64,000 bases of DNA, taken from the NCBI GenBank assembly GCA_030431255.1, contig JAUIJL010000002.1, forward strand, positions 558,001-622,000. Direction: 5' to 3'. Shown one piece after another: positions 35,559 through 51,030 of the stretch. This stretch comes from Thermoanaerobaculia bacterium (lineage in GTDB: Bacteria; Acidobacteriota; Thermoanaerobaculia; Multivoradales; J023). A program made the position numbers and the translations under genes. Below the pieces are notes generated by a model. It was not told the DNA's origin, made no database searches, and was given only the letters and a program-made list of their open reading frames with translations. Position 1 is the first letter of the stretch, and each line of letters opens with the position of its first letter.

Positions 35559-35640
35559 CCGGCTTGCCGCAGGCTCAAACGATTTAAGGCATGAAAGAAA
35601 CCGTCGACCTCGGGTCGATCTAACATCGGAGGACCGAAAG

Positions 35641-36159
35641 ATGTCAGAACCGTTCCTCGCCGAAGTCCGTATCGTGGCCTTCAACTTCGCGCCACGGGGC
35701 TGGGCTTTTTGCGACGGGCAAATCCTGCCCATCAATCAAAACCAATCCCTCTACTCCTTGTTGGGTACGACCTACGGCGGAGACGGGCGCACTTCATTCG
35801 CGCTTCCCGATTTGCGAGGCCGCACCCCCATCCACGTGGGCCAGTCCAACGGTGGGCAACGCCACACCGAAGGGCAGAAGAGCGGTGAGGAAACCCACAC
35901 CTTGGCCGCCAACGAGATGCCCCAACACGATCACGTGCTGCAGGTGACCAACACCATCGGCAATACCGATCAAATCGGCGGCCATGTGCCGGCCCAGGCT
36001 TTGGGAGCAACGGTCTACGGTGATTTCGGCACGCCGACCGCCATGGCGACCGGCACGGTGACGAATGTCGGCGGCAGCCAAGCCCACGAGAACATGCAGC
36101 CCTATTTGGCGATCAACTTTTGCATCGCCCTCCAAGGTCTATTCCCATCCCGCAACTGA
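35641..36159 (+). CDS. Phage tail collar-domain protein (MdpB-like), copy 1
   Basis: This 172-residue protein has the tail-collar (microcystin-dependent-protein-like) signature FAPRGWAFCDGQILPINQNQ, LLGTTYGGDGRTSFALPDLRGR and a C-terminal LAINFCIALQG. Tail-collar proteins form trimeric fibre tips in phages and also occur as stand-alone chromosomal genes of unknown role. GGAGG precedes the ATG at 35641. It is 82 bp after the giant gene and the first of three tandem paralogues, all 172 residues long with 12-bp gaps. No phage structural gene is nearby. Confidence 0.9.
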   Translation: MSEPFLAEVRIVAFNFAPRGWAFCDGQILPINQNQSLYSLLGTTYGGDGRTSFALPDLRGRTPIHVGQSNGGQRHTEGQKSGEETHTLAANEMPQHDHVLQVTNTIGNTDQIGGHVPAQALGATVYGDFGTPTAMATGTVTNVGGSQAHENMQPYLAINFCIALQGLFPSRN

Positions 36160-36171
36160 GGAGATTCTTCG

Positions 36172-36690
36172 ATGTCTGAACCATTTGTCGGTGAAGTTCG
36201 CATGTTCGCGGGGAATTTCGCGCCTAGGGGCTGGGCCTTCTGTGACGGGCAGTTGCTCGCCGTATCGCAAAACGATGCCCTTTTCTCCCTGCTAGGGACG
36301 ATTTACGGCGGCGACGGCCGAACTACTTTCGGCTTGCCGGACTTGCGAGGTCGTATTCCGATCCACGCCGGCACCGGCCCTGGTCTCTCCCCGCGACGGC
36401 TCGGCGCCAAAGGAGGCGCGGAGAACGTTACCCTGACCGTCAACCAGATGCCGAGCCATGGGCATCCCATGCAGGCGGTCAACGGCGCCGCCAACAGCCA
36501 GCAGCCCGGAGATAAAGGTCCGGCATCGGCTCTCGGTGTCGACGCCTGGGCCGAAGAACCCGATCCTGTGAATTTCAGCAGCCAGTCGATTACCAATGTC
36601 GGCGGCAGCCGCTCCCACACCAATCTCATGCCCTTCCTCTGCGTCAACTTCATCATCGCCCTTTTCGGCATTTACCCGTCTCGACACTAG
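36172..36690 (+). CDS. Phage tail collar-domain protein (MdpB-like), copy 2
   Basis: Second member of the trio, 172 residues, with FAPRGWAFCDGQLLAVSQND, LLGTIYGGDGRTTFGLPDLRGR, QMPSHGHPM and a C-terminal FIIALFGIYPSRH. It shares the extended GPGLSPRRLGAKGG segment with copy 3, which copy 1 lacks, so copies 2 and 3 are closer relatives. GAGGAG lies before the ATG. It probably assembles with its paralogues, but this is inferred only from adjacency. Confidence 0.9.
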   Translation: MSEPFVGEVRMFAGNFAPRGWAFCDGQLLAVSQNDALFSLLGTIYGGDGRTTFGLPDLRGRIPIHAGTGPGLSPRRLGAKGGAENVTLTVNQMPSHGHPMQAVNGAANSQQPGDKGPASALGVDAWAEEPDPVNFSSQSITNVGGSRSHTNLMPFLCVNFIIALFGIYPSRH

Positions 36691-36702
36691 GGAGCAGATC
36701 CG

Positions 36703-37221
36703 ATGTCAGAGCCATTCATCGCTGAAATCCGAATTTTCGCCGGCAACTTCGCTCCCAGAAGCTGGGCTTTCTGCAACGGCCAGCTTCTGCCTGTGTCACA
36801 GAATACGGCCCTCTTCTCTCTCATCGGCACGACCTACGGGGGCGACGGGCGCACGACGACCGCCCTTCCCAACTTAGAAGGTCGAGCGCCCATGCATCCC
36901 GGTCGTGGCCCCGGCTTGACCTCTAGACGCCTCGGCCAAAGAGGCGGCGTCGAGACGGTCACCCTGTCCGAAGCCCAGATGCCGAATCACACCCACACGC
37001 TGATGGGCTCCGGTGAAGACGGCAACTCGCAGAACCCGGGTGGCAATCACTTCGGAGCGGGGACCAACATGTACCACACGCCAAACGGCGTTAGTCTTGT
37101 CCCCGCGGCAACGCAGACCCTGCCGAGCTCCGGCGGCAGCCAGGCCCACAACAATCTGCAGCCCTTCCTCGTCATGAATTTCATCATCGCGTTGCAGGGG
37201 CTGTATCCGTCGCGCAGCTGA
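36703..37221 (+). CDS. Phage tail collar-domain protein (MdpB-like), copy 3
   Basis: Third member, 172 residues, with FAPRSWAFCNGQLLPVSQNT, LIGTTYGGDGRTTTALPNLEGR, GPGLTSRRLGQRGG and a His-rich QMPNHTHTL. The usual LPDLRGR is LPNLEGR here and CDG is CNG, so it has diverged somewhat. AGGGAG precedes the ATG. A strong terminator follows at 37240, so the trio ends a transcript that may begin at the giant surface-protein gene. Confidence 0.9.
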   Translation: MSEPFIAEIRIFAGNFAPRSWAFCNGQLLPVSQNTALFSLIGTTYGGDGRTTTALPNLEGRAPMHPGRGPGLTSRRLGQRGGVETVTLSEAQMPNHTHTLMGSGEDGNSQNPGGNHFGAGTNMYHTPNGVSLVPAATQTLPSSGGSQAHNNLQPFLVMNFIIALQGLYPSRS

Positions 37222-37822: not shown

Positions 37823-38143
37823 ATGAGCGACTCGCCCGCCCCCGGCACCCTCTCTGTCGGCACGTTCAAACCTTGCCAAGGCCAAACCTTCAGCCTCAAG
37901 GCCGAGGACCGCACCATCGAGCTTCTGCTGAGCTCCGTCAGCTCCCTCAAAGGTGATACGCCTCGGGAAGACAAGAACCCGTTTTCTTTGCTTTTCCACG
38001 GCCCGCCGGACGCCTACTTCGAGCAACAAACCGTGGTGCTCCACAACGAGACCCTCGGCGAGCTCGCCCTCTTCTTGGTACCCCTCGGGCCGGACCCCGA
38101 CGACGAGGGTCGGCGCATGCTTTACGAAGCAATCTTTACCTGA
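37823..38143 (+). CDS. DUF6916 family protein
   Basis: This small acidic 106-residue protein has strands FKPCQGQTFSLKAEDRTIELLL and a C-terminal ALFLVPLGPDPDDEGRRMLYEAIF, as in DUF6916 proteins, which often accompany tail-collar/MdpB-like genes. It has no signal peptide. I recognise the family from this pattern but its function is not established. It lies 31 bp after the GNAT gene. Confidence 0.7.
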   Translation: MSDSPAPGTLSVGTFKPCQGQTFSLKAEDRTIELLLSSVSSLKGDTPREDKNPFSLLFHGPPDAYFEQQTVVLHNETLGELALFLVPLGPDPDDEGRRMLYEAIFT

Positions 38144-38395
38144 TCCTCTTCACGCCTCCCCTTAAAATCTCTACCTTTTCTCTATACGCCCCTCAGGCCC
38201 CGAGGGGCTGTTCCCCGACCTGCCGACCGGATGGTATGCTGATTGCAGATACAGCTGCCAAAGACCGCGAGTCGACTCAACCGGTAACGACGCGGCAAGG
38301 GCTGATCAGGCACTTAACTTCTTCTATTCTCTGGTCTGGATTCGCCCTCGACCGGGCTCGGAGCGAGCCCCAATCGGGTAGCTGTGGGGGAAGAA

Positions 38396-41300
38396 ATGGA
38401 TGCCATGGAAAAATTCCCAGGGTTGAGATGCGCTAGGGGTTGGGGAATCGCCTTCACCCTCGGATTGCTCTCCCCGGTTTCCCCGGCCTTCGCCGGAGGC
38501 ACCCCCGCCACCGGCACGGTCGCCGATCAGGTGGTGATGATCACCGGCTCCGAATCCAAAACTGAAGACGGTGACTTTCTAACCGCCAACGACGGCCTCG
38601 ATTCCTTCCACAGCTTTTTCATCGAGGTTCCGGTCGGCGCTACCTCCCTAGAAGTGGACCTCTGGGACATGGACGTCTTGCTCGGCATCGACGACGGCAC
38701 CAACACCGAGCAGGTGGCCGAACGGGATCGAATTCGCCGGTATGAGCTCCATCTCGCAGACCCTGTCGGAAATTTCAACGACCACGTCGGCGCCTCCGTC
38801 GCCAAATACCAGCTCTTCGATCCCGATGGAAACGCTGTCGTCACCAAAAATATTTTCGGCAGCCACTTCGCCCCGGGAAATGCCGATGGAGCCTGGCTCA
38901 ACTTCTACGACAGCGACTTGGCCGATACCTCGTCCGGTGACCAATTCCTGGATCAATTCGGCACCGCCTCCTATTCCAACAACGATGGTACGGTGAATTT
39001 TGCCGGGGATTGGGTCGAAGACGAGCAAGCTGGTGTTCGAGCCTGCAATACGGGCGCTGGGGCCGGAGCCGGATTGGTACGCATCGCCAGCGGTCAGCTG
39101 CGCGTCACGGACGATTGTGACTTCAGCCCGGACATGGGCCGAGAGCCCAGCGTGCGGCGAGAGCTCGATCTCTCCAGCTATACGTCGGCCGTCCTCTCAT
39201 TTGATTGGTCCGTCCTCGGGGGCATGGAGAAGAGCGACGCCATTGTGCTCGAGCTGTCGTCGGATGGCGGTACCAGCTGGACCATCGTCGACGGGTTCAC
39301 AGCTTACCCTGGAGTCGCCTCAGGCTCCCGCTCCTATGACATCTCCGACTTCATCGCCGTAAATACCCAGATTCGATTCCGGGTCGAAAACCTCTTCGCC
39401 GGCGTGAACAACGAGGTCCTGCTCATCGACAACTTCTCGATTCGCGCAACCGCCAATGCCGCGGCAGCCCCTCAGGCAGGCCATTGGGAGCTGCGGATCG
39501 ACATGTCCACCGGCGCCAACGACGCCGGCTCCGGTTTCAACGGCGATGAAACCAATGCTTTTGGTCTTCGCGCCCACGACGGCGACGAAACCTCCGGTGG
39601 CACGGAATACAACGTCTACACCTATCACTTCACCGCCGGCATCAATCCCAACGACTCCGGCCGTGACTACACCCTCTACCCTCTGATTGCTTCCGGCTGC
39701 GACTTCGACGTCAACGATTTCGATTGGGACGCGGACCTTGCCTCGAACACGGATCCGGATCCCGACCTGGACCCGCCCTTCGGCTCCCTGACGGTGACCT
39801 CGCCGGATACGACCTTCAGCAGCGGTAGCACCCTCTCCGCCAACGACACCTGGGAAGGCACCACGGCCACGGGTTTCACCTCCGACGAGGAGGTGGATCA
39901 ATACGGCATCTGGACCATGGACGGACGGGTCGAGGACCCGGTCGACGGCAACTACGCGCCCATCTACGTCGGCACCTATGAAGACGCCGATCTCGTTCCG
40001 GCGACCATCCCCGACCCGGAAAGCTTTCGCATCTACCTGCCGACCGACGGCGGTGGCGCTCCGGTCAAGCCCTACATGACCCAGCGTTTGACCGTCTTCA
40101 CCACCCAACCGTCCGGCGGATCCAATCCGCCGAATACCGGCGAGACCACCCGCTACGCCGTGTCGGTGGTGATCTGGAATCCGGACGGCTCTTCCGGTGA
40201 CATCACCTTCGATCTCACCCGTCTGGTGACCGCGCGCCTTCCCGGCGGCGACGTGACCTACCAGGGCATCGGCTTCTTGACCCAGGGCACGGTGGTCTCC
40301 CAGCCCACGGTCGGTTCCAACACCGCCGGTGACCTCACCTGGAATCCGGGCACTGTGTCGGCCGGCACCGGCGGTAACGACGAAACCGCCACCCTGGTCT
40401 ATGTGATCGACGTCACCGGGCCGGCGACCCCTTATACCGTGCAAGTGAACGGGGCCCCGGGCAGCGGCAACGGGACCCGGGCCACCTGGCTCGATGAAAC
40501 CGGTGACGAGGACTTCTCCACCGGCGAGCTCTGCCAGATGCAGCTGGTCAACACCACCGCGACGCCGGTGGTGGTGGAATCCGCGGAGCTGGTGGAGCGC
40601 GACGGCCGAGCTCTGCTGCATTGGACCACCGCCAGCGAGGCCGGCACCCGCGGCTTCGACGTCTTCCGAATGGAAGATGGAAATCGGGCGGTCAAAGTGA
40701 ACGACAGCTTGATCAACGCCTGGATCGGCCATGTGCCGGGCGGCTCCTATCAGCTGGAGGATCCCGACGCGCGCCTCGACGGTCCGTCCACCTATTGGAT
40801 CGTCGAAATCGACAGCCGGGGCCGTCGCAATCCCTACGGTCCATTCGAGGTCGAGCCCCAGACCCGAGCCGACCTACCGAGCGTCGGCCCCCGGGTGCTC
40901 GACGCCGCCTACGCCCGGAGGTCCGCCAAGGCCGCCGCCGACCGAGCCGCGAAGGTCGCCGCGACGACCGGCGCTCTCGACTCGAGGGCTGGATCGATCT
41001 CACGGGTCAAGATCCGGGTCGACCAAGAGGGCATGCAGCAGGTCACCGCGAACCAGCTCGCGGCGGCCTTCGGGCTACCCGTCGAGGATATGCGCGCCGC
41101 CATCGAGAGCCATCAGCTGCGCCTCACCCTCCATGGCGAGTCGATCGCTTGGCTGCCCCTCGGCAATCAGGCGTTGCTGTTCTACGGGCAGCCCATCGAC
41201 ACCCCGTACACCGACCAGCAGGTCTATTGGCTGGACCAGCAACGGGGCCGGGTGATGGGTCGCGCGTTCGTCCGTAATGTGCCTCCCGATTGGAGCGGTG

Positions 41301-43090
41301 AGACCTTCCGCGACCGCATCTGGATCGAAGAGAACCTTCGACCCGTGGTCATCCTCGACCTGGATCCCGAAAGCGACACCTGGTTCTGGGATTTCGTCCG
41401 CCCCGGAGGATCCAGCGCGGTCGCCGACTTCAGCGCCACCATCCCCTCGGTGGTAACGCAGCCCGATCAAGACCCAGAGGTCACCGTCCACTTGCAGGGC
41501 GGCGCCGAGGGCGACCACGAAGTGGCCGTTTCTTGGAACGACCAATGGCTCGGCCATGTGGAGCTCAGCGGCTCCGACACCCAGGTGGCGACCTTCGAGC
41601 TGCCGGTCGGTGCCTTGGTCGACGGTGAGAACACTTTGGAGCTGGAGGCGCTGCAGGGAGATTTGGTCTTCTTGGAAGGCTTTGAGCTCGCCTACGATCG
41701 CAAAACCCGGGCCGCCGGTGAAGCGCTCGCCTTGCAGACCGAAGAGTCCGGTGTGGCCACGGTCTCAGGATTCTCGGATCCCGACATCCGGGTCTTCGAC
41801 ATCACCGTGCCCGCCGTTCCACGATTCCTCCGCGGCGCAACGGTATTGGCCGAAGGGGCGGAGCATCGCGTGGTCTTCCCCACCACCACAGGGCGTGGAG
41901 GTCCCAAGACCTACCTCGCCGTGTCCGGCTCCGGAGCCTTCTCCCCCACCTTGGAGCCCGACCACCCATCCGAGCTGACTCTCGATCATCCCGGAGTCGA
42001 CTACCTGGTGATCAGCGCGCAACCGCTGGCCGCCGCGGCCCAAACCCTGGTGGACTATCGTCAATCCCTCGGTTTGGAATCCATGTTGGTCTCGCTCGAA
42101 GACATCTACGACGAATTCGCCGAGGGCCGCAGGGATCCCACAGCCATTCGAGATTTCCTGACCCATGTCTGGACCGAATGGACGGAGCCTCCTCACCTGG
42201 TTGCTTTGGCGGGCCACGGCACCTACGACTTCCGTGACCATTGGGAATTGGGCGACAACCTTCTGCCGCCCCTTCTCGGCCAACGGCCCGGCAGCCTCTT
42301 CCCCAGCGATGCGCTCTTCGGAGATGTGGTCGGCGACGACGGCATCCCCGAGCTGGTGATCGGCAGAATTCCGGCCTTGAGCCCCCAAGAGCTGACAAAT
42401 TACGTCACCAAGCTACAGGCCTACGAAAGTCTCAGCGACACCAGCTGGGATCATCGAATCCTCGCCCTAGCGGACCATGTCGACGGCGCTGGTGACTTCG
42501 CCGCCGACAGCCGCCACCTGCAAAGCTTGTTGGGCTTCGGATTTGAGGCCGCTGAGGTGCACCTGGACGATCAAGCCGATCTCGCGACCGCCCGCCAAGA
42601 GCTTTTCGACCAGCTCGACGCCGGTGCCGCGCTGATCCACTACGAAGGTCATGGCGGCGTCGACAGGCTTTCCAGCGGCGGCTTGCTGTTGTCGTCGGAT
42701 CTGCCGGGGCTCGGCAACGCGGGTCAAGGTCATCTTTTGACGGCCGGCACCTGCAATATTGGCTTGCATGCATTTCCGGGCTTAGACTCCCTCGCGGAGC
42801 GATGGGTGCTGGAATCGGATCGTGGAGCGATTGCGGCCCTGGCGCCGGCTTGGTTGATCGACAACAGCCAAGCTCGCCGGGTGATCGATCGCCTCTTCCG
42901 GGAGCTCTTCTTGCAGGAGCAACTCGTTTTGGGGGAGGCGATTCGTTCCGCCTTCGCCAATGCGGCCGCCAACGGCACGGCGGCCCATGTCTTGCATTCT
43001 TATCAATTGGTGGGCGACCCGGCCGCGGTCTTGCAGCTGCGTCCGCAGCCACCCCCACCAGGTTGCAGTGTGGATTGCGGCAATGGTTGA
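38396..43090 (+). CDS. Giant exported C25 (gingipain-like) cysteine protease, copy A
   Basis: This 1564-residue precursor has a signal peptide ending in SPAFA before GGTPATGTV. Several beta-sandwich domains follow (a jelly-roll with an IDNFSIRA strand, a GCDFDVNDFDWD motif and a DUF11-like domain at about 600-690) and then an FN3-like segment with LLHWTTASEAGTRGFDVFRME. The last 400 residues are a caspase-like C25 domain with the dyad H1419 (YEGHGGVD) and C1453 (AGTCNIG), 34 residues apart, compared with 33 in RgpB. The chain ends in CSVDCGNG, with no recognisable type IX secretion domain. The start is uncertain among GTG 38384, ATG 38396 and ATG 38405, and GGGGGAAG favours the ATGs. Precursor gene 1 follows in the same frame 51 bp later. 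Confidence 0.88.
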   Translation: MDAMEKFPGLRCARGWGIAFTLGLLSPVSPAFAGGTPATGTVADQVVMITGSESKTEDGDFLTANDGLDSFHSFFIEVPVGATSLEVDLWDMDVLLGIDDGTNTEQVAERDRIRRYELHLADPVGNFNDHVGASVAKYQLFDPDGNAVVTKNIFGSHFAPGNADGAWLNFYDSDLADTSSGDQFLDQFGTASYSNNDGTVNFAGDWVEDEQAGVRACNTGAGAGAGLVRIASGQLRVTDDCDFSPDMGREPSVRRELDLSSYTSAVLSFDWSVLGGMEKSDAIVLELSSDGGTSWTIVDGFTAYPGVASGSRSYDISDFIAVNTQIRFRVENLFAGVNNEVLLIDNFSIRATANAAAAPQAGHWELRIDMSTGANDAGSGFNGDETNAFGLRAHDGDETSGGTEYNVYTYHFTAGINPNDSGRDYTLYPLIASGCDFDVNDFDWDADLASNTDPDPDLDPPFGSLTVTSPDTTFSSGSTLSANDTWEGTTATGFTSDEEVDQYGIWTMDGRVEDPVDGNYAPIYVGTYEDADLVPATIPDPESFRIYLPTDGGGAPVKPYMTQRLTVFTTQPSGGSNPPNTGETTRYAVSVVIWNPDGSSGDITFDLTRLVTARLPGGDVTYQGIGFLTQGTVVSQPTVGSNTAGDLTWNPGTVSAGTGGNDETATLVYVIDVTGPATPYTVQVNGAPGSGNGTRATWLDETGDEDFSTGELCQMQLVNTTATPVVVESAELVERDGRALLHWTTASEAGTRGFDVFRMEDGNRAVKVNDSLINAWIGHVPGGSYQLEDPDARLDGPSTYWIVEIDSRGRRNPYGPFEVEPQTRADLPSVGPRVLDAAYARRSAKAAADRAAKVAATTGALDSRAGSISRVKIRVDQEGMQQVTANQLAAAFGLPVEDMRAAIESHQLRLTLHGESIAWLPLGNQALLFYGQPIDTPYTDQQVYWLDQQRGRVMGRAFVRNVPPDWSGETFRDRIWIEENLRPVVILDLDPESDTWFWDFVRPGGSSAVADFSATIPSVVTQPDQDPEVTVHLQGGAEGDHEVAVSWNDQWLGHVELSGSDTQVATFELPVGALVDGENTLELEALQGDLVFLEGFELAYDRKTRAAGEALALQTEESGVATVSGFSDPDIRVFDITVPAVPRFLRGATVLAEGAEHRVVFPTTTGRGGPKTYLAVSGSGAFSPTLEPDHPSELTLDHPGVDYLVISAQPLAAAAQTLVDYRQSLGLESMLVSLEDIYDEFAEGRRDPTAIRDFLTHVWTEWTEPPHLVALAGHGTYDFRDHWELGDNLLPPLLGQRPGSLFPSDALFGDVVGDDGIPELVIGRIPALSPQELTNYVTKLQAYESLSDTSWDHRILALADHVDGAGDFAADSRHLQSLLGFGFEAAEVHLDDQADLATARQELFDQLDAGAALIHYEGHGGVDRLSSGGLLLSSDLPGLGNAGQGHLLTAGTCNIGLHAFPGLDSLAERWVLESDRGAIAALAPAWLIDNSQARRVIDRLFRELFLQEQLVLGEAIRSAFANAAANGTAAHVLHSYQLVGDPAAVLQLRPQPPPPGCSVDCGNG

Positions 43091-43141: not shown

Positions 43142-43318
43142 GTGTACATAAAGAAATCTGAAAGAGCCGCGGAAAGCCCTACCCCACCCGCTTTCGCCGG
43201 CCGTCGAAGCTACGAACGGCCGCAAATCATTCATCGGGAGTCCCTGGAGGCCATGGCGGCCGATTGCTCGTTCCCCGGAGGCAAAGGAGACCCGACTTGC
43301 ACGGTCGGCTTCTCGTGA
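43142..43318 (+). CDS. Putative RiPP precursor peptide 1
   Basis: This 58-residue peptide starts at a GTG with AGGAGA about ten bases upstream. The C-terminal region reads RPQIIHRESLEAMAAD and then CSFPGGKGDPTCTVGFS. It is the paralogue of the peptide at 48251, with 23 of the last 38 residues identical, and both share DCxxPGGKxDxxCxxGFS at the extreme C terminus. The Arg-rich, hydrophilic N-terminal part looks like a leader. The order RPxIxxREpLEAMAxDC resembles leader-to-core junctions of other radical-SAM peptides. No signal peptide is present. It lies between the two C25 protease genes and upstream of the PqqD/radical SAM genes. Confidence 0.82.
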   Translation: MYIKKSERAAESPTPPAFAGRRSYERPQIIHRESLEAMAADCSFPGGKGDPTCTVGFS

Positions 43319-43388
43319 TCTCTCGCTGCCAGTGAATCTATCTCCTGATCCTACTTCTCTTGATTCGACCGGCCAGATGGAGCTCGTC

Positions 43389-46300
43389 ATGAACGCGCCA
43401 AAAAAACGCCTTTCTCCCCCGACTTCCCCCCAAGCCCCCAAAGAACACCACCCCGTCAAATCGAGGGGTTTGGCCTGTGCGCTCTTGGTCGCCGGGCTCG
43501 CCGTCTGGCTATCTCCTTCTGCCGAGGGCGGCGGCACCCCCGCCACCAGCACCGTGACCGACCAGCTGCAGACCATGGGTGGAGGCGGCGCCGCCGCTTC
43601 CGTGGGCGACGACATCAGCTCAACCGCCACCGGCCTCGATGAGCCCTACTTCTTTTATATCGAGGTTCCTCCGGGCGCCACGGATCTTGAAGTCGATATC
43701 TTCGACGCGGACGTTTACGCTGCGGGCGGCGCCGACGACAGCGGTGAGCGAGATCAACGGCGACTGCCTGTCGAAACCAACGCCCGGTACCGCCTTTTCG
43801 ATCCCGACGGCAACGAGGTTCCGGCCCGCTTCACCTTCGGCAACGATGTCACTCCGCTGAGCTCTGACAATGCCTGGAAAAACTTCTACAACAGCAATAC
43901 CGCCGGCGTGACCGGCGGCGACACCTACGCCGACAATTTCGGCACTGCCGCCTACAACAACAACGACGGCAGCCAGAATTTCGGCGGTAATTGGACCGAA
44001 ACCGGCGACGACGGCAGCGCCACTACCACCACCGGCAAGATCTTTATCACCGGCGGGGTCTTGAGAGTCTCCAACGCCGGCGATCCCAGCCCATTCACCA
44101 GCCAACCCACGATCCGTAGGGCCGTCGATCTCTCGTCCTACAGCGCCGCCACCGTCAGCTTCGACTACAACACCAGCGCCGGGGTCGACATCCTCTCCTC
44201 GTCCACCTCCAACATCGGCGATTCTTTCGCCTTCGAGGCCACCTCCAACGGCACCAATTGGGAGACCCTGGTGGAAGTGGCCGACGCCAACGGCTCGGTG
44301 AGCGGCACCTTGACCTACGATTTGAGCGGCCACTTGAGCGCCAATGCCGCCATTCGCTTTCGGATCACCAATCGTTACGCCGCCGCTTCTCCCGCCGAAT
44401 ACGTCGACATCGACAACCTCGAGATCCGGGCCAACACCACCGCCAACGGCGCGGCTCCGGATGCCGGTCATTGGATGCTCGAGGTGGATATGTCCGGTGA
44501 TGTCAACGGCGACCAGGCCGGCAACGGCAACAATCAAGACGGTGTCAACGCTTTCGGCATTCGCGCCCACGACGGCACCCCCGGATCCGGTGGCACGGAA
44601 TACAACGTCTACGCCCACTCCTACGTGATCGTCGGCATCAACGACAACGATCGATCTCGGTCCTACAATTTCTATCCATACATCACCCAGGGCTGCGAAG
44701 GGGACGTCAACGACTTCGACTTCGACGCCAACCAACCCAATCCGGCGGCTCCGAACACCAACATTCAACCCTTCGGCACGGTCGACCTCACCTCGAGGAG
44801 CGCCGCGTTCACCCAAGACGAAGGCGGGGTGATGTCGAATAACGACGCTTGGAATAGCTTCAACTTCACGGGTTGGACCGCCGACGATCAGGCAGACGAA
44901 TACGGCATTTGGTCGATGGTGGTAACCATCGCCGACTGGGATCAAAATAACTACGGCCCGCTCTACGTCGGCAATGAGGACGCCGCCGCGCCGGGGCCAA
45001 CAGCCAGCCCCGAAGCCGACACCTTCAGGATCTACTTCCCGAATGACGCCGGTAACGCCCCGGCCAAACCCCATGTCTCCCACTATCTGAACTACGTCGA
45101 CGACCAGTCCAGCGGCCCCAACCCGCCGGGCGTCGGCCAGACCAGCCGTTATGCGGTGAGCATCGTGGTGGCCAATCCCACGGGATCCATCGGCGACATC
45201 ACCTTCAGCAACACCAACGTCGTCACCGGGCATATTCCTGCGGGCGCCGAAACTGTATACGGCGGTGTGGCGTTCACCACCGCCGGCTCGATCGTCAGCC
45301 AGCCCACGGTAGGCGCCACCACCGGTGACATCACCTGGAATCCGGGCACCCTTTCCCCGGGCGACACCGAGTCCCTCGTCTACTACGTGGACATCACTCC
45401 CGCCGCGGCTACCGACATCGCGGTCACCGCGGCTTCGGGCTCGGGCAACGGCACCCGCGCCAACTTCCTCGACGAAACCGGCGATCAAACTTTCCTCTTC
45501 GGCGAGCTGTGCCAATTGGTGATGTCCGCCAGCGCCGCGACCCCGGTGTTGGTCAGCGATTTCGGCTCGGAAATCATCGATCGTCAAGCGGTGGTCTATT
45601 GGCAAACCGCCGCCGAGGCGCAAACGGTGGGCCTGGACCTGTACCGAATCGGAGACGACGGCGAGCGCGTGCGGGTCAACGAAAAGACCTTGCTCCCCTT
45701 GCTCAGCCGTCCCCAGGGCGGCAGCTATCGCTTTGTCGATCGTGACGCGCCGCTCGACAGCCCGTCGGTCTACCTCTTGGAAGAAATAGAGTCCACGGGC
45801 CATCGCAAGTCCCACGGCCCCTTCCGCGTCACTCCGCGTCCGGCGCCCGAGGGCCGGGAGCTACCCGCGGGCCTCGAAAGGATCCATCACCCCACGCCGC
45901 TCGCGGAGCAAGAGCGATTGGCGGCGGCCCGTGATTCCGCCGCCGCGTCCGCGGAACGGCCGGCTGCCGGCCAAGATCGGAATCTTTTCCGTGGCATCGG
46001 CAACACCTTGAGGGTCGGTGTGGACCGCTCCGGCATCTACCGCATCACCGCCCAAGACCTCGCCTCGGCCTTCGGCATCGACCAACGCTTGGCATTCGCC
46101 ATGCTCGCCCGCCATCGGGTTCGCCTCACCCTCGAAGGTCAGGAGATCCCGTGGCGCAAGGTCGGCCGCGGCCAGGCCCTGGAGTTCTACGGCGAAGCCA
46201 TCGACAGCCCATTCACCGGCACCCAGGTGTATCAGCTGGACACCATCCGTGGCACGGTGCTCTCCGAGCCCGGCGGCGCGCAGATCGCCCCCGATTGGAG

Positions 46301-48065
46301 TGGTGACCACTACCTGCATACCGAGAGGTTTGAGGAGTCCGAGTCGCCCATCGTGCTGATGGATATCGACCCGGAGTCGGATCATTGGTTCTGGGGTTTC
46401 GTATCCCCGCAAGCCCAGGTCCGCGACTTCGCCGCCCAGGTCTCCGATCCGGCGACGGGCACCACCGCCGAGCTGCGCTTGGACCTTCAAGGAGCTGCCG
46501 AGGGTGAGCACGATGTGGTGATCCGCTGGAACGGCCACGAGCTCGGACAGGTGTCGGTCGACGGCACCGAGGCCGACTCCTTCGTGCTTTCCCTCGATCC
46601 GGGCGATCTGCTCTCGGGTGCGAATACCCTGCAAGTGGAGCTGCTCGGCCAAGGCTTGGTCTTCGTCGACGGCTTCGACCTCACCTACGAGCGTCGTCTG
46701 CAGCCTGAAAACGACCTGATCGAGGTCACCGGACTGGATGCGGAGCGGCTCAGCGCGGCCCCGTTCTCGTCATCGAATCTGCGGGCCATGGACCTGACGG
46801 ATCCGCGCAATCCACGGCTCGTCTCGGTCCGAGCGATCCAGGAGAACGCCGGCTATCGAGCCGTGTGGGCGGGTCGCGGCGGCGGTCCCTTCGCGGTCGC
46901 CTCCGATGACGGTCTGCTCACCCCGACCCTCGAGGTCGACGTGCCGTCGGACCTACGGGCCACGGATTTGCGGGTCGACTACCTGGTGATCACCACCGCC
47001 GACATGCTCGACGCGGCCCAAGAGCTCGCGGACTATCGCGGTGCCCAAGGCCTCGACACCTTGGTGGTCGACGTGCAGGACGTCTACGACGAATTCGCTT
47101 TCGGCCGCCGAGACATCCGCGCGGTCCGCGACTTCTTGGCCTACGCCCACAGCTCGTGGCAGCGCGGCCCCCACTACGTGGTCCTCGCCGGTGCCGGCAC
47201 TTACGATCACCATGACTACTACGGTCTCGGCGGCAATCGCATCCCGGTGCTGCTGGCGAGCAACGGCGAGAGCCTCTACGGCTCCGACTCTTCCTTGGCG
47301 GACTTCGACGGCGATGGGATTCCGGAAATCAGCATCGGTCGAATTCCCGCCCTGGTAGCCGGGGAGCTGTCGGCCTACGTGGCGAAGGTCCAAGGCTATG
47401 AAGCCGCGGCCGGCGGGGCGTGGCAATCCAACGTCTTGATCCTCTCGGATCAGCCCGACGGCAGCGATCAATTCACCGAAGCCGGAAGCGCGTTGGAGTC
47501 CCTCCTGCCCGCCGGCTTCAACCCGATCCGGGCCGAGCTGGAGAGCACGGATCTCGCCACCGCCCGTCAGACCGTCTTCGACGGCTTGGCGACCGGCGCT
47601 TCTTGGCTGCACTACACCGGACACGGTGGCGTGGATCGTATGTCTCACCAGGGATTGTTGACTTCCGCCGATGTGGATGGTCTCACCAATACCCACCTGC
47701 CGATCGTCAGCTCGGTGACGTGTCACATCAATTACCACAGCTTGCCCGGATTCGACTCCCTCGGCGAGCACTTGGTCTTGGAGGCCGACGCCGGCGCGAT
47801 CGCTGTGTTGGCGCCCAGCTGGCTGGCCCGTCACCACCAATCGCGACGGATCGGAGATCGTCTCTTCCGGCAGGTCTTCCAGCAGGGCGTCTCGACCCTC
47901 GGACAAGCGGTCCAGGTCGCGCTTCGATCCGCCCAGGATGCGGGTGCTCCCAAAGGGGTGCTCGGGACCTACCAGCTGCTCGGAGATCCCGCGCTCAAGA
48001 TCAGAGCCGAGGCTTCCTCCGGCTCCTCCGACGACTGCGAGGCGGGCTGCGGTGGCCCGGGCTGA
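43389..48065 (+). CDS. Giant exported C25 (gingipain-like) cysteine protease, copy B
   Basis: Paralogue of copy A along its whole length (1558 residues). It has a long basic N-region, a hydrophobic segment (ACALLVAGLAVWLSPSAEG), the mature start GGTPATSTVTDQ, the same beta-sandwich, DUF11-like and FN3-like order, and a C-terminal C25 domain with H1412 (YTGHGGVD) and C1445 (SVTCHIN), exactly 33 residues apart as in gingipains. It ends in DCEAGCGGPG, again a CxxxCG tail. GGAG at seven bases supports the ATG at 43389 over upstream GTG and ATG codons. It is preceded by precursor 1 (70 bp) and followed by precursor 2 (185 bp), so a role in maturing or responding to these peptides is likely. Confidence 0.88.
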   Translation: MNAPKKRLSPPTSPQAPKEHHPVKSRGLACALLVAGLAVWLSPSAEGGGTPATSTVTDQLQTMGGGGAAASVGDDISSTATGLDEPYFFYIEVPPGATDLEVDIFDADVYAAGGADDSGERDQRRLPVETNARYRLFDPDGNEVPARFTFGNDVTPLSSDNAWKNFYNSNTAGVTGGDTYADNFGTAAYNNNDGSQNFGGNWTETGDDGSATTTTGKIFITGGVLRVSNAGDPSPFTSQPTIRRAVDLSSYSAATVSFDYNTSAGVDILSSSTSNIGDSFAFEATSNGTNWETLVEVADANGSVSGTLTYDLSGHLSANAAIRFRITNRYAAASPAEYVDIDNLEIRANTTANGAAPDAGHWMLEVDMSGDVNGDQAGNGNNQDGVNAFGIRAHDGTPGSGGTEYNVYAHSYVIVGINDNDRSRSYNFYPYITQGCEGDVNDFDFDANQPNPAAPNTNIQPFGTVDLTSRSAAFTQDEGGVMSNNDAWNSFNFTGWTADDQADEYGIWSMVVTIADWDQNNYGPLYVGNEDAAAPGPTASPEADTFRIYFPNDAGNAPAKPHVSHYLNYVDDQSSGPNPPGVGQTSRYAVSIVVANPTGSIGDITFSNTNVVTGHIPAGAETVYGGVAFTTAGSIVSQPTVGATTGDITWNPGTLSPGDTESLVYYVDITPAAATDIAVTAASGSGNGTRANFLDETGDQTFLFGELCQLVMSASAATPVLVSDFGSEIIDRQAVVYWQTAAEAQTVGLDLYRIGDDGERVRVNEKTLLPLLSRPQGGSYRFVDRDAPLDSPSVYLLEEIESTGHRKSHGPFRVTPRPAPEGRELPAGLERIHHPTPLAEQERLAAARDSAAASAERPAAGQDRNLFRGIGNTLRVGVDRSGIYRITAQDLASAFGIDQRLAFAMLARHRVRLTLEGQEIPWRKVGRGQALEFYGEAIDSPFTGTQVYQLDTIRGTVLSEPGGAQIAPDWSGDHYLHTERFEESESPIVLMDIDPESDHWFWGFVSPQAQVRDFAAQVSDPATGTTAELRLDLQGAAEGEHDVVIRWNGHELGQVSVDGTEADSFVLSLDPGDLLSGANTLQVELLGQGLVFVDGFDLTYERRLQPENDLIEVTGLDAERLSAAPFSSSNLRAMDLTDPRNPRLVSVRAIQENAGYRAVWAGRGGGPFAVASDDGLLTPTLEVDVPSDLRATDLRVDYLVITTADMLDAAQELADYRGAQGLDTLVVDVQDVYDEFAFGRRDIRAVRDFLAYAHSSWQRGPHYVVLAGAGTYDHHDYYGLGGNRIPVLLASNGESLYGSDSSLADFDGDGIPEISIGRIPALVAGELSAYVAKVQGYEAAAGGAWQSNVLILSDQPDGSDQFTEAGSALESLLPAGFNPIRAELESTDLATARQTVFDGLATGASWLHYTGHGGVDRMSHQGLLTSADVDGLTNTHLPIVSSVTCHINYHSLPGFDSLGEHLVLEADAGAIAVLAPSWLARHHQSRRIGDRLFRQVFQQGVSTLGQAVQVALRSAQDAGAPKGVLGTYQLLGDPALKIRAEASSGSSDDCEAGCGGPG

Positions 48066-48134
48066 GACCCGGCCGAAAGTCGGTGACCATCGGCTGAATG
48101 TCAATGTTCATCGGAGGTTAGACATGGGCCTATC

Positions 48135-48169
48135 GGGCACGTCCAGGGGGATCGATCCTGGACGTCGCC
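48135..48169 (+). repeat. Strong hairpin upstream of precursor gene 2
   Basis: ACGTCCAGG (48139-48147) pairs with CCTGGACGT (48157-48165), extended by GGGC/GCCC with a bulge. It lacks a T-tract, so it is more likely an RNA stability or attenuation element between protease B and the peptide gene than a terminator. Confidence 0.55.
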
Positions 48170-48250
48170 CCTGGCCTGAGCTAATATTCAGGGGTGGAAG
48201 TATTCTTGGCACGACTGGAATCGAAGCCGAAATCATCGCTTTTTTGAACC

Positions 48251-48430
48251 ATGACTCTGCGGAACCCGGAAACACAGCATCCCATCGAGCAGGGCGAGTC
48301 GACGTCAAAGGTTCGACGTCGGTATGCCCGACCGCGGATTCTGTATCGCGAGCCGATCGAAGCCATGGCTTCCGATTGTGCGATTCCCGGCGGCAAGTCC
48401 GACGCTTCATGCGTTCTCGGCTTTTCCTGA
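48251..48430 (+). CDS. Putative RiPP precursor peptide 2
   Basis: This 59-residue peptide begins with the ATG at 48251, the first start after an in-frame stop. Its C-terminal half, RPRILYREPIEAMASD followed by CAIPGGKSDASCVLGFS, is the paralogue of precursor 1 with the same two Cys, PGGK, Asp and terminal GFS. Differences are conservative (I/L, H/Y, S/A, F/I). That pattern supports protein-level selection and shows which frame is coding. No strong ribosome binding site is seen. It lies 30 bp before the PqqD-like gene and so is the natural substrate of the downstream enzymes. It overlaps a longer open frame that I reject. Confidence 0.84.
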   Translation: MTLRNPETQHPIEQGESTSKVRRRYARPRILYREPIEAMASDCAIPGGKSDASCVLGFS

Positions 48431-48460: not shown

Positions 48461-48799
48461 ATGTCTGAGCCCCATCCGACCAAAGCAGAACAGGTAGAGC
48501 CTCGGTTCTACCGCCGTTGCGCCGACGTCCGATTCCGCATTGTCGATGGCGAAGCGGTGATCTTGCGTCAAGCGGCCGCGGAGAATCTGGTGCTCAACGA
48601 GGTCGGGTCCAGCATCCTGAAATGGCTGGATTCGGGCTGTAGCACCGTCGAGGTGGCCCAACAGATGCAGGCGGTGTACAAGGTGTCGTCCGAGCGGGTC
48701 GCCGAGGATCTCCCCCTCTTCCTGCGCGAGCTCGAAGACGCCGGCGTGGTCGAGCCCACTACCGACGCCGACGAGCGCCGCGCCGAGACCGGAGCTTAA
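48461..48799 (+). CDS. PqqD-like RiPP recognition protein
   Basis: This 112-residue protein has the PqqD fold pattern: an N-terminal strand region VRFRIVDGEAVILRQAAAENLVLNEVGSSILKWLDSG, then a winged-helix stretch CSTVEVAQQMQAVYKVSSERVAEDLPLFLRELEDAGVV. PqqD domains bind leader peptides and deliver them to radical SAM enzymes. GAGGGA lies 6 bases before the ATG. It is 30 bp downstream of precursor 2 and 4 bp upstream of the radical SAM gene, so all three are surely cotranscribed. Confidence 0.9.
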   Translation: MSEPHPTKAEQVEPRFYRRCADVRFRIVDGEAVILRQAAAENLVLNEVGSSILKWLDSGCSTVEVAQQMQAVYKVSSERVAEDLPLFLRELEDAGVVEPTTDADERRAETGA

Positions 48800-48803
48800 C
48801 CCC

Positions 48804-49883
48804 ATGGCCATGCTGAGAGTCCTCCAAAAAACCTGGAATCAGAACATCCTCTTCTCGGTGTTGGTGGAGCTGACTTACCGTTGCAACCTCGATTGTTTCT
48901 TCTGCTACAACGACCTCTCCCTCCAAGGTAAGACCCTCAGCGACGAGCAATATTTCGCCTTCTTTCAAGATCTCGCGGATCTTCAGGTCTTCAATCTCAC
49001 GTTCACCGGCGGGGAGCCGCTGGCCCATCCCGGCTTCCTCAACCTTGGGCGAAAAGCCAAGGAGCTCGGTTTCGTGGTCCGGATCAAGTCCAACGGACAT
49101 GCCCTCTCCGGTGAGCTGGCCCGGCAGATCCGCGAGCAGGTGGACCCGTTCTTGGTCGAGGTCAGCCTGCACGGCGCCACGGCCGAGGTCCACGACAAAC
49201 AAACCCGTGTGCCGGGATCCTTCGAACGCCTCCTGGGCAATCTCCGCGCCATGAAAGAGATGGGTTTTCGGGTCAAGCTCAACGGCACCCTGACCCGTTG
49301 GAATGAGCACCAAATCGAGGAGATGTTCACGGTCGCGAAAAGCCTCGGCTGTGTATTCTCCCTCTCACCCACGGTCACCCCGCGGGACGACGGCGACCTC
49401 AGCCCGATGTCGATCGCGCCGAGTGAGGAAGGCGTCCGCCGACTCTACGCCTACTTGGACGAGATGATTCCCGATAGCGAGGTCCCCGACAGGGACCTCT
49501 CAGATGCCGGCGGCACCTGCACCGGCACCCCGGGCATGCACAAGAATTGCGGTGCCGGCGCGTCCGGCCTAGCGGTCGATCCCTTCGGCGCGGTTTACCC
49601 GTGCGTCCAGTGGCGTCGTCCCCTGGGCAATCTCCACGAGCAATCGATTCGCGAGATTTGGACCGGTTCTTCGGAGCTCGAGGAGATTCGTCAAATCAAC
49701 AGCCGCGCCCATCGACAAATCGCCGAGCTCGGCGATGAAGGCTTCGGAGTGGCCCATTGCATGGGCATTTCCGAAGAGAAGACCGGCGATCCCTTGGCTT
49801 TCGATCCCCAGGCCGTGCGCCAGGGCGAGCTCCTGCGCGACGTTCGCAAGGAGCGACGAGAGCTGCTGCCGATTCTGCCCTGA
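48804..49883 (+). CDS. Radical SAM/SPASM peptide-modifying enzyme
   Basis: The 359-residue protein has the cluster motif C27-x3-C31-x2-C34 (YRCNLDCFFCYN), the SAM-binding TFTGGEPLAHPG and a C-terminal SPASM region with CGAGASGLAVDPFGAVYPCVQW and a late Cys in AHCMG for auxiliary Fe-S clusters. SPASM enzymes paired with PqqD install thioether or carbon-carbon links in ribosomal peptides. The neighbouring precursors with two conserved cysteines are the evident substrates. The reaction type cannot be told from sequence. It is 4 bp from pqqD and 37 bp from the kinase-like gene. Confidence 0.94.
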   Translation: MAMLRVLQKTWNQNILFSVLVELTYRCNLDCFFCYNDLSLQGKTLSDEQYFAFFQDLADLQVFNLTFTGGEPLAHPGFLNLGRKAKELGFVVRIKSNGHALSGELARQIREQVDPFLVEVSLHGATAEVHDKQTRVPGSFERLLGNLRAMKEMGFRVKLNGTLTRWNEHQIEEMFTVAKSLGCVFSLSPTVTPRDDGDLSPMSIAPSEEGVRRLYAYLDEMIPDSEVPDRDLSDAGGTCTGTPGMHKNCGAGASGLAVDPFGAVYPCVQWRRPLGNLHEQSIREIWTGSSELEEIRQINSRAHRQIAELGDEGFGVAHCMGISEEKTGDPLAFDPQAVRQGELLRDVRKERRELLPILP

Positions 49884-49920: not shown

Positions 49921-51030
49921 ATGAGCCAATCCCCCCACTTCGCTCCTCCGGCTGAGACCCGCCGCGAGGACTTCGGCAAGCTGTTCCTCAGCCATCCCGA
50001 CCTCTTTCCCGCCCGCCAAGCCGGCGAGCCCTGGGGTCGGTCCAGCTTGGTGGTGGATTTCGCCGGGGGTCCGTACGGATTCAGCGGGCTCAGCGAGGGA
50101 CAGCACCGAGAGCTGTCCGAGCGTTTCGGCGAGCTCGTCCTGCTGAACGACCAAGCGGCCTCGATCCTGACCGCGGCCGAAACCACGCCGATCAGGATTT
50201 TCAAAGCGGCCCCCAGCGAGCTCAAAGAATTCGATGTGAGGGGTTGGAGCTACACCTTCGATCGGGACTATCAAGACACAGCGGTGAGAGTTGCAGGCCT
50301 GCAATTCATGGCTAGGATCGACTTCGACGGCCACCGCCGAGGCACGGCCCCAGGCCCGCATCAGCCCACGGGCAACGGCATCGGCAAGATTCGCGCGGCC
50401 CTGTGGACGCCTCTGGACGAAGGACCCGTCTTCCTGGCCCAGGTCGAGAACTTCTTCCGCCTCCTGGTGGCCTATCGCTTGCTCGAGCTGGGCGGCGTGC
50501 TCTTCCACAGCGCAGGGGTCGTTTCCGATCAACGGGGATTCCTATTTATGGGACATTCCGGGGCCGGCAAGACCACGATCTCACGTTGCTCCCTGGCCAC
50601 CGGACGACAGGTGCTCTCCGACGATATGAACGCCCTATGCCCTCTGGGCTCAGACCCGGGCTCGGGCTCGGATCCGGGAGCACCGGCGGTGGAAAAGCTG
50701 CCCTTTGCCGGCGATTTGGGCCGCACCCCCACCGCCCGACAACGTTATCCCCTCGCCGGCTTGTACCGGCTCAAGAAGGGAGCCGACGCCATCCGCCCCG
50801 TGCGACGCTCCCAAGCCGTAGCCTTCTTGATCGGCTGCGCTCCGTTCGTCAATGCCGACCCCCACCGTCTGGACCGGCTGACCGACAATTTGCTCCACCT
50901 GCTGGACGGTTTTCCCATGTCGGAGCTGACCTTCTCCATCGAAGGCGATTTTTGGCGACTGCTGGAAGCGGACGCCGCAGAGCGGGAATCGAGCAAAAGG
51001 GTTGGTCTCGCTGCTCACAAACGGCCATAA
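49921..51030 (+). CDS. HPr kinase-like P-loop protein
   Basis: This 369-residue protein has a P-loop GHSGAGKTT at about residues 211-219, followed by LSDDMNAL, the Walker B-like acid of HPr kinases, then LYRLKKG and a C-terminal helical domain. The N-terminal 190 residues are a separate domain typical of HprK-related proteins in PqqD/RiPP loci. HprK homologues in lasso-peptide clusters phosphorylate the C-terminal Ser of the precursor. Here both precursors end in an invariant Ser. The start at ATG 49921 is preceded by GGGAGG. I am confident of the family, less so of the substrate. Confidence 0.85.
   Translation: MSQSPHFAPPAETRREDFGKLFLSHPDLFPARQAGEPWGRSSLVVDFAGGPYGFSGLSEGQHRELSERFGELVLLNDQAASILTAAETTPIRIFKAAPSELKEFDVRGWSYTFDRDYQDTAVRVAGLQFMARIDFDGHRRGTAPGPHQPTGNGIGKIRAALWTPLDEGPVFLAQVENFFRLLVAYRLLELGGVLFHSAGVVSDQRGFLFMGHSGAGKTTISRCSLATGRQVLSDDMNALCPLGSDPGSGSDPGAPAVEKLPFAGDLGRTPTARQRYPLAGLYRLKKGADAIRPVRRSQAVAFLIGCAPFVNADPHRLDRLTDNLLHLLDGFPMSELTFSIEGDFWRLLEADAAERESSKRVGLAAHKRP

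Follow-up and report, generated by a model that had tools for sequence, protein, structure and literature searches.

Short precursor peptides encoded beside C25 peptidase genes in a Thermoanaerobaculia bacterium: a candidate RiPP family combining a discrete RRE, a radical SAM enzyme and an HprK-like kinase

In the mycofactocin (MftB/MftC) and pyrroloquinoline quinone (PQQ; PqqD/PqqE) pathways, a short precursor is served by a discrete RiPP (ribosomally synthesized and post-translationally modified peptide) recognition element (RRE) and a SPASM-type radical S-adenosylmethionine (SAM) enzyme, and the SynChlorMet cassette (ScmC, ScmD, ScmE/F) brings HprK-like, PqqD-like and radical SAM proteins together. 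In the linear polyphosphorylated peptide (LPP) system of Bacillota, according to the available part of its description, a discrete RRE binds precursors with the motif YxxPxVLxHQxIxFETxxS, an archaeal-type signal peptidase that needs the RRE removes the leader after Thr at position 16 counted from Tyr, and an HprK-like kinase phosphorylates core Ser3 (PMC13381572). Core Ser3 is likewise the phosphorylated residue of BsfA (PMC10368454, PMC13381572), lasso precursor kinases share the motif H-GxxGxGKS-DD, and several lasso peptides are (poly)phosphorylated on the C-terminal Ser, as the accessible text reports (PMC10368454). In this study, we analysed a 64,000-nucleotide stretch of contig JAUIJL010000002.1 from a Thermoanaerobaculia bacterium (hereafter the window) and two short frames within it. 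We are highly confident that the two peptides belong to a large family of RiPP precursors, and we consider it somewhat probable, as the best overall explanation, that they are modified by the adjacent gene cassette into a product acting with a C25 peptidase. The biosynthetic logic is well supported by gene content and conserved motifs, and what the product would do with the peptidase is inferred from gene pairing.

The initial annotation had reported two frames of 58 and 59 codons, and both were present. The leader/core boundary of peptide 1 was set from the register with LPP leaders.

43142..43318, + strand: precursor peptide 1, 58 aa, GTG start (open reading frame and family profile match)
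43211..43258, + strand: RRE-binding leader segment predicted in peptide 1
43259..43315, + strand: predicted core of peptide 1, ADCSFPGGKGDPTCTVGFS
48251..48430, + strand: precursor peptide 2, 59 aa, ATG start (open reading frame and family profile match)
48323..48370, + strand: leader segment predicted in peptide 2
48371..48427, + strand: predicted core of peptide 2, SDCAIPGGKSDASCVLGFS

A recount of the shared C terminus agreed with the 23 identical residues among 38 reported before, and the last 35 residues (YERPQIIHRESLEAMAADCSFPGGKGDPTCTVGFS in peptide 1, YARPRILYREPIEAMASDCAIPGGKSDASCVLGFS in peptide 2) were identical at 21 positions. The six frames of the window contain 70,748 stop-free stretches of 35 residues; the runner-up to peptide 1 among them reached 9 identities, and 20 shuffled copies of peptide 1 scored 9-11 at best, so that chance similarity is indeed unlikely. 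Over the 35 codons, the proportions of synonymous (pS) and nonsynonymous (pN) differences were 0.73 and 0.225, and the corresponding rates were dS about 2.7 (near saturation) and dN 0.27, rather than the dN/dS ratio near 1 that had been named as refuting. Selection on this pair is purifying, and together with the maturation genes found beside the relatives this bears out the proposal of paralogous RiPP-type precursors.

We then searched for relatives. The window's own genome held a third copy, unlinked to the pair and ending CGGLGGKGDPIVCPSGPIQS. Relatives were present in 29/72 genomes of the order (three-row profile, E<=0.1; the count includes the weak, unread matches L030-L038, E 0.036-0.09), in 36/148 genomes of the class (20-row profile, E<=0.01; matches G118, G119 and G038:C86 were left unread) and in 59 of 396 genomes drawn from the phylum (20-row profile, E<=0.001). 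A profile scan of genome contigs gave two named relatives, both Acidobacteria metagenome-assembled genomes, so that the phylum is probably Acidobacteriota; the family is spread across many of its families. Three candidates from the first own-genome search (L004-L006, E >=0.19) were set aside; L004 was read and no such peptide gene was recognised in it. In total we read 60 loci, namely the window, L007, L009, L010, 20 stretches from the order, 16 from the class and 20 further ones from the phylum, the last hand-picked, mostly for better scores, from 48 extra genomes with a match; many of the 60 stop at contig ends. These loci contained 66 peptides at E<=5e-3. Finite dN/dS values were obtained for 17 of 22 peptide pairs and ranged from 0 to 0.42, some pairs spanning just 28-32 codons (the window pair was recomputed over 35).

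Alignment of the 66 peptides showed the motif P-x11-A-x-x-C in 64, Tyr or Trp three residues ahead of the Pro in 58 and a C-terminal Ser in 63, the remaining three ending in Ala, Thr and Thr. A second Cys closes a loop of 8-16 residues counting both Cys, and this loop mostly contains a Lys. The exact core pattern DC..PGGK.D..C..GFS proposed earlier is a local variant, and many relatives end C..GPIxS. The conserved part had also been placed in the C terminus, and the best-kept part turned out to be the leader plus the first Cys (YxxPxI...E..E..A..C). Scans of the window peptides against Pfam (E<=0.01) and NCBIfam (E<=1) gave no match, and among three relatives scanned against the same databases one short peptide gave a sub-threshold DUF5972 match over ten residues of its start. 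The initial annotation knew of no named RiPP family with this pattern, which agrees with these scans. In literature searches, judged by titles and abstract openings, no paper on this cassette was recognised, and as far as these sources were searched the family is undescribed.

The genes around the peptides were scored with our own profiles (E<=1e-3). A radical SAM/SPASM maturase was found in 48/60 loci (window included), a PqqD-type RRE in 45, an HprK-like kinase in 40 and a signal-peptidase-like gene in 15, so the short homologous frames beside PqqD, radical SAM and HprK-like genes that the initial annotation had suggested seeking in related genomes do exist. The order and strand of these genes vary between loci. 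Both maturase and C25 were missing from eight loci (L007, L009, L047-L049, L100, L127, L142), and in L007 and L009 the contig ends just 3' of the peptide. For the three of these eight loci that come from the order (genomes G041, G042 and G064), each genome carries the set of signal-peptidase-like, HprK, PqqD and maturase genes on a different contig (the G042 contigs are short). Across the 148 class genomes, peptide and maturase occurred together in 29, the peptide alone in 7, the maturase alone in 4 and neither in 108 (p 5e-20, kinship ignored; the maturase cut of E<=1e-50 was chosen after the list was seen). One of the four maturase-only genomes, G143, carries a divergent peptide; around the maturases of the other three (G001, G022, G140), no precursor was found by profile, regular expression and, in part, by eye.

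The maturase keeps CxxxCxxC and three further Cys in 49/49 aligned rows, and the kinase keeps the motif His, Gly-Lys and Asp in 42/42 rows (second copies per locus included), with the strict GxxGxGK[ST] pattern failing in 2 of them. In six loci (L057, L058, L096, L098, L101, L144) precursor and PqqD form one frame with the peptide C-terminal; these natural fusions support a link between leader and PqqD and could be used directly for in vitro work. The family thus shows a short precursor with a conserved leader, encoded with modifying enzymes and an RRE. The one signal-peptidase-like protein scanned was closest to TIGR02228 (archaeal type; E 1.6e-8, below cut-off). A signal-peptidase-like query of six genomes gave one distant match in the window's own genome, 41% identical over part of its length, and no other cassette gene lay within 10 kb of it. 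Among eight aligned signal-peptidase-like seeds, the position of the presumed nucleophilic Ser was Cys in six (GxCMxP for GxSMxP) and Ser in L041 and L044; the Cys-type proteins are those of L042 (7105-7521), L043, L045, L046, L052 and L055.

We compared this gene set with the described systems. The likeness to LPP, as far as the available text of that paper describes it, lies in the discrete RRE, the HprK-like kinase, the signal-peptidase-like protease of part of the loci, and a YxxPx[V/I]L leader in ungapped register with the boundary at position 16 from Tyr; in this register Ala replaces Thr at 16, and Cys replaces Ser3 at 19, so that core position 3 is Cys where LPP has a phosphorylated Ser (64/66 peptides are in register). 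The present family differs in its radical SAM/SPASM enzyme, second Cys, conserved C terminus and C25 partner, and the word "radical" is absent from the LPP text examined (PMC13381572). The enzyme set merges LPP-like logic with a radical SAM enzyme. An LPP-type NTP transferase was seen in L010 and in a set neighbouring the L042 cassette, the latter copy being missed by a one-sequence profile. Paeninodin-type and Bradymonas (BsfA) lasso systems share the YxxPxL-type leader, the PqqD-type B1 protein and the HprK-like kinase motif, to judge from the accessible part of their description (PMC10368454), and the present family has a radical SAM enzyme and C25 instead. No lasso macrolactam cyclase (asparagine-synthetase-like C protein) was found among ten window proteins scanned by model.

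Mycofactocin and PQQ resemble the family in that a discrete RRE and a SPASM radical SAM enzyme serve a short precursor, and differ from it in kinase, Cys loop and C25 pairing. The best NCBIfam model of the maturase was mycofactocin TIGR03962 (E 4.1e-33), at 115 bits against a cut-off of 265, and the PQQ models scored 21.1 against 46 bits (PqqD, TIGR03859) and 89.7 against 381.35 (PqqE, TIGR02109). SynChlorMet has the same combination of HprK-like, PqqD-like and radical SAM proteins, with model scores of 24.1/125, 13.1/100 and 80.2/400 bits (score/cut-off) for ScmC, ScmD and ScmE. Set side by side from sequence alone, sactipeptides and ranthipeptides share the SPASM radical SAM enzyme and Cys-containing core; the StsB model, with a cut-off of 625 bits, gave the maturase 83.6.

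On the + strand of the window the order is C25, peptide 1, C25, peptide 2, PqqD, radical SAM/SPASM and HprK-like kinase.

38384..43090, + strand: C25 (PorU-like) peptidase 1, 1568 aa, presumably secreted (Pfam PF01364, E 1.2e-64)
43332..48065, + strand: C25 (PorU-like) peptidase 2, presumably secreted (PF01364, E 2e-69; start perhaps at 43377 or 43389)
48461..48799, + strand: PqqD-type RRE (leader-binding) protein, 112 aa (PF05402, E 2.6e-9)
48804..49883, + strand: radical SAM/SPASM peptide maturase, 359 aa (PF04055 and PF13186)
49921..51030, + strand: HprK-like peptide kinase, start codon inferred in a frame open from 49735 (NCBIfam HprK-related kinase B, E 9.7e-6, below cut-off)

The two frames had been described as lying in different local contexts, and this did not hold, because each is directly 3' of a C25 peptidase gene. 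These peptidases, absent from the initial annotation, are the most telling neighbours. Their C-terminal parts are 44% identical, and the two C25-plus-peptide units look like a tandem duplication closed by the PqqD, radical SAM and HprK-like genes. Peptidase 1 has a signal-peptide-like N terminus by eye, and peptidase 2 keeps the presumed catalytic His and Cys. The top NCBIfam models of the PqqD protein were lasso-type PqqD, below cut-off. The kinase had no Pfam match and keeps the motif His, Gly-Lys and Asp; its sequence gave nothing usable against solved structures. Alignments of 2 rows each gave AlphaFold models of low quality for the kinase (pLDDT 44.9) and for the C25 C-terminal part (pLDDT 36.1), unsuitable for fold search. 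The window locus has no signal-peptidase-like gene.

A C25 (PorU-like) peptidase occurred in 34/60 loci, at 38-227 bp from the peptide to the nearest match in 18, at 636-1,124 bp in 12 (where the match may stop short of the gene end) and at 3.4-9.0 kb in L042, L091, L097 and L137. In 14 hand-picked peptide-bearing genomes, PF01364 gave 36 matches at E<=1e-5. G202, G346, G481 and G256 each had a single one, 85-1121 bp from the peptide, and the sole match of G075 lay 5.9 kb away; under random placement, the distances and the gene and genome sizes give roughly a one-in-a-thousand chance for each adjacency in the first four. Around peptide-distant C25 genes of these genomes, 18 stretches contained no peptide, maturase or PqqD match, with one HprK and one signal-peptidase-like match among them. 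C25s and peptides stood at 3:3 in L051, 2:2 in L056 and 2:2 in the window for a single maturase set. In a tree of 58 C25 domains, the peptide-linked ones clustered, with 9 changes against a shuffled mean of 16.2; 1 and 0 of 500 label shuffles were as low.

These C25s carry a Peptidase_C25 domain in which the residues we take to be catalytic are kept (His in 37/37 rows, Cys in 36/37), are mostly 1,300-1,700 aa long where complete and have apparent signal peptides by eye. In L051, dN/dS between tandem peptides was 0.02 and 0.07, with the third pair saturated, and it was 0.02 in L056. Cores that change so little between tandem copies suggest a single product, required in proportion to C25, rather than diversified inhibitors. 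We regard a partnership between C25 and the peptide product, in some form, as fairly probable. The C25s of peptides ending GFS (window and L039; n=3) have two Cys in their last residues, e.g. GCSVDCGNG; 13 other C25 tails have no such Cys. Kinship may explain these tail Cys, yet L054 belongs to the same genus and has none.

On the basis of these results, a mechanism in five steps can be proposed. The PqqD protein would bind the leader motif YxxPxI, as expected from known RREs, and the radical SAM/SPASM enzyme would modify the core, most likely in the Cys-bounded loop or the constant C terminus. The HprK-like kinase would then phosphorylate a hydroxyl residue; because Cys occupies the place of Ser3, its target is probably the near-invariant C-terminal Ser, as in several lasso peptides. 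From the ungapped LPP register, cleavage is expected on the C-terminal side of the conserved Ala, which lies three residues ahead of the first Cys; where a signal-peptidase-like enzyme is encoded, it would make this cut, leaving cores of roughly 17-25 residues beginning x-x-Cys. The product would finally act with the adjacent large C25 as a proportional companion, be it a regulator, a pseudosubstrate or a ligation substrate. That the peptide so often accompanies a large peptidase, by appearance a secreted one, speaks for a physiological role, not a weapon, and offers a handle on PorU-like C25 function outside type IX secretion.

Several observations weigh against this explanation. Since the peptides were gathered by a profile of their own motif, register and motif conservation are in part circular. 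G143, which was found via its maturase, provides an independent case: the adjoining divergent frame (profile E 0.15), as read over 60 residues, retains two Cys, a Lys between them and the final Ser. The family has Cys at the LPP/BsfA phosphosite described in the available texts, and HprK is missing from 20/60 stretches in which the C-terminal Ser is mostly retained, so this Ser may serve something other than phosphorylation. When 24 loci were compared all against all, no clear exporter emerged beyond the ABC-exporter-like family of four loci described below. C25 was not found in 26/60 stretches, some of them cut at contig ends, and the numbers of C25s and peptides do not always agree: a single C25 accompanies two peptides in L039, and L054 has two C25 matches, two maturases and one peptide. 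In the C25 tree the peptide-linked C25s do not form one clade, and in L051 C25s 1 and 3 are sisters while peptides 2 and 3 are closest, which argues against tight pairwise specificity. L010, L040 and some fused-type loci adjoin other large proteins. Those seen in loci without C25 are a 3251-aa SdrD-B protein in L040; a beta-barrel (BBP2_2) protein encoded upstream of the L010 peptide, with L009 similar by sequence; a subtilase with propeller in L144; propeller proteins in L098 and L101; and an fn3/BNR-type protein in L102. The peptide may be the companion of a large exported protein, of which C25 is the commonest.

The proximity of a protease to a precursor would also fit a C25 that merely matures or releases a secreted RiPP (antimicrobial or signal) without lasting partnership, and candidate leader proteases do appear where C25 is missing, signal-peptidase-like in L045, L046, L052 and L055 and Transglut_core3/B2-like in L057 and L098. 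This alternative is rather unlikely, since 11 of the 15 loci with a signal-peptidase-like gene also contain C25, and the C25s of the window, L051 and L056 were multiplied along with the peptides, whereas PqqD, maturase and kinase stayed single. Moreover, the large C25s apparently bear signal peptides, unlike the precursors, which show none by eye, and the tandem cores barely diversify. Many antimicrobial RiPPs have diversified cores, unlike these copies.

A more specific form of the companion reading would make the modified peptide a dedicated switch that turns its secreted C25 peptidase on and off: the loop, covalently closed from Cys to Cys, would offer Lys as a P1-like pseudosubstrate residue, as short canonical inhibitor loops of plants present theirs, and phosphorylation of the terminal Ser would tune it. 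Lys or Arg lies inside the loop in 38/39 free peptides from C25-bearing loci and in 0/6 PqqD-fused peptides, whose loci show no C25, yet also in 20/21 free peptides without C25 in the stretch. We consider this switch doubtful; if true, it would be a RiPP class in which radical SAM chemistry and a peptide kinase regulate a caspase-fold protease, kept across the phylum.

There is a small chance that the C-terminal part becomes a cofactor-like molecule, as in PQQ or mycofactocin, used by neighbouring exported proteins. The discrete RRE, the strict C terminus and the mycofactocin model as the maturase's top match fit such a product, as do the PQQ_2-type propeller repeats in the large neighbour of L098, L101 and L144, the three of the six fused-type loci for which this neighbour was scanned; against it stand the maturase score far below the mycofactocin cut-off and a loop varying from 8 to 16 residues, which would be odd for a single cofactor. 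Equally improbable is that C25 joins the modified peptide, as an anchor or tag, to surface molecules or proteins. PorU is a sortase-type transpeptidase and its structure (6za2) is the only solved one matched by C25 (peptidase 2), and some C25-less loci also have large partners that look exported; the NCBIfam type IX secretion system (T9SS) sortase model matched peptidase 1 only partially and below cut-off, and no search was aimed at T9SS. The shortness of the two frames and the GTG start of peptide 1 might suggest that they arose by chance or are pseudogenes; conservation across class and phylum, the purifying selection and the pairing in genomes make this possibility practically negligible.

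Further observations concern individual loci. One family in four of 24 loci looks like an ABC exporter by eye. A second PqqD, lasso B2-like and HprK-related set adjoins the cassette in L042 (12200-15135) and L045 (1-2548), in L042 together with an NTP_transf_5 gene, and no cyclase was noticed in either set. L090 (8506-9898) contains a shortened radical SAM frame and an apparent leftover C25 tail beside an intact-looking precursor (GPISS), and by eye is probably a decaying locus. L099 has two diverged maturase/PqqD/kinase copies with C25 matches on either side within one 14-kb stretch, and its single detected peptide ends in Ala and is without the loop Lys. The unlinked precursors of L047, L048 and L049 lie near FHA-like and response-regulator-like genes (named by eye), as if part of a regulatory unit. 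In the window, the histidine-phosphatase and ATP-grasp proteins downstream of the cassette had no match in the 23 other loci compared. Upstream, a DUF6916 gene at 37823-38143 lies between C25 peptidase 1 and three tandem genes at 35509-37221 with alike starts (MSEPF..E.R..A.NFAPR.WAFC.GQ), which are putatively phage-tail-collar/Mdp-like.

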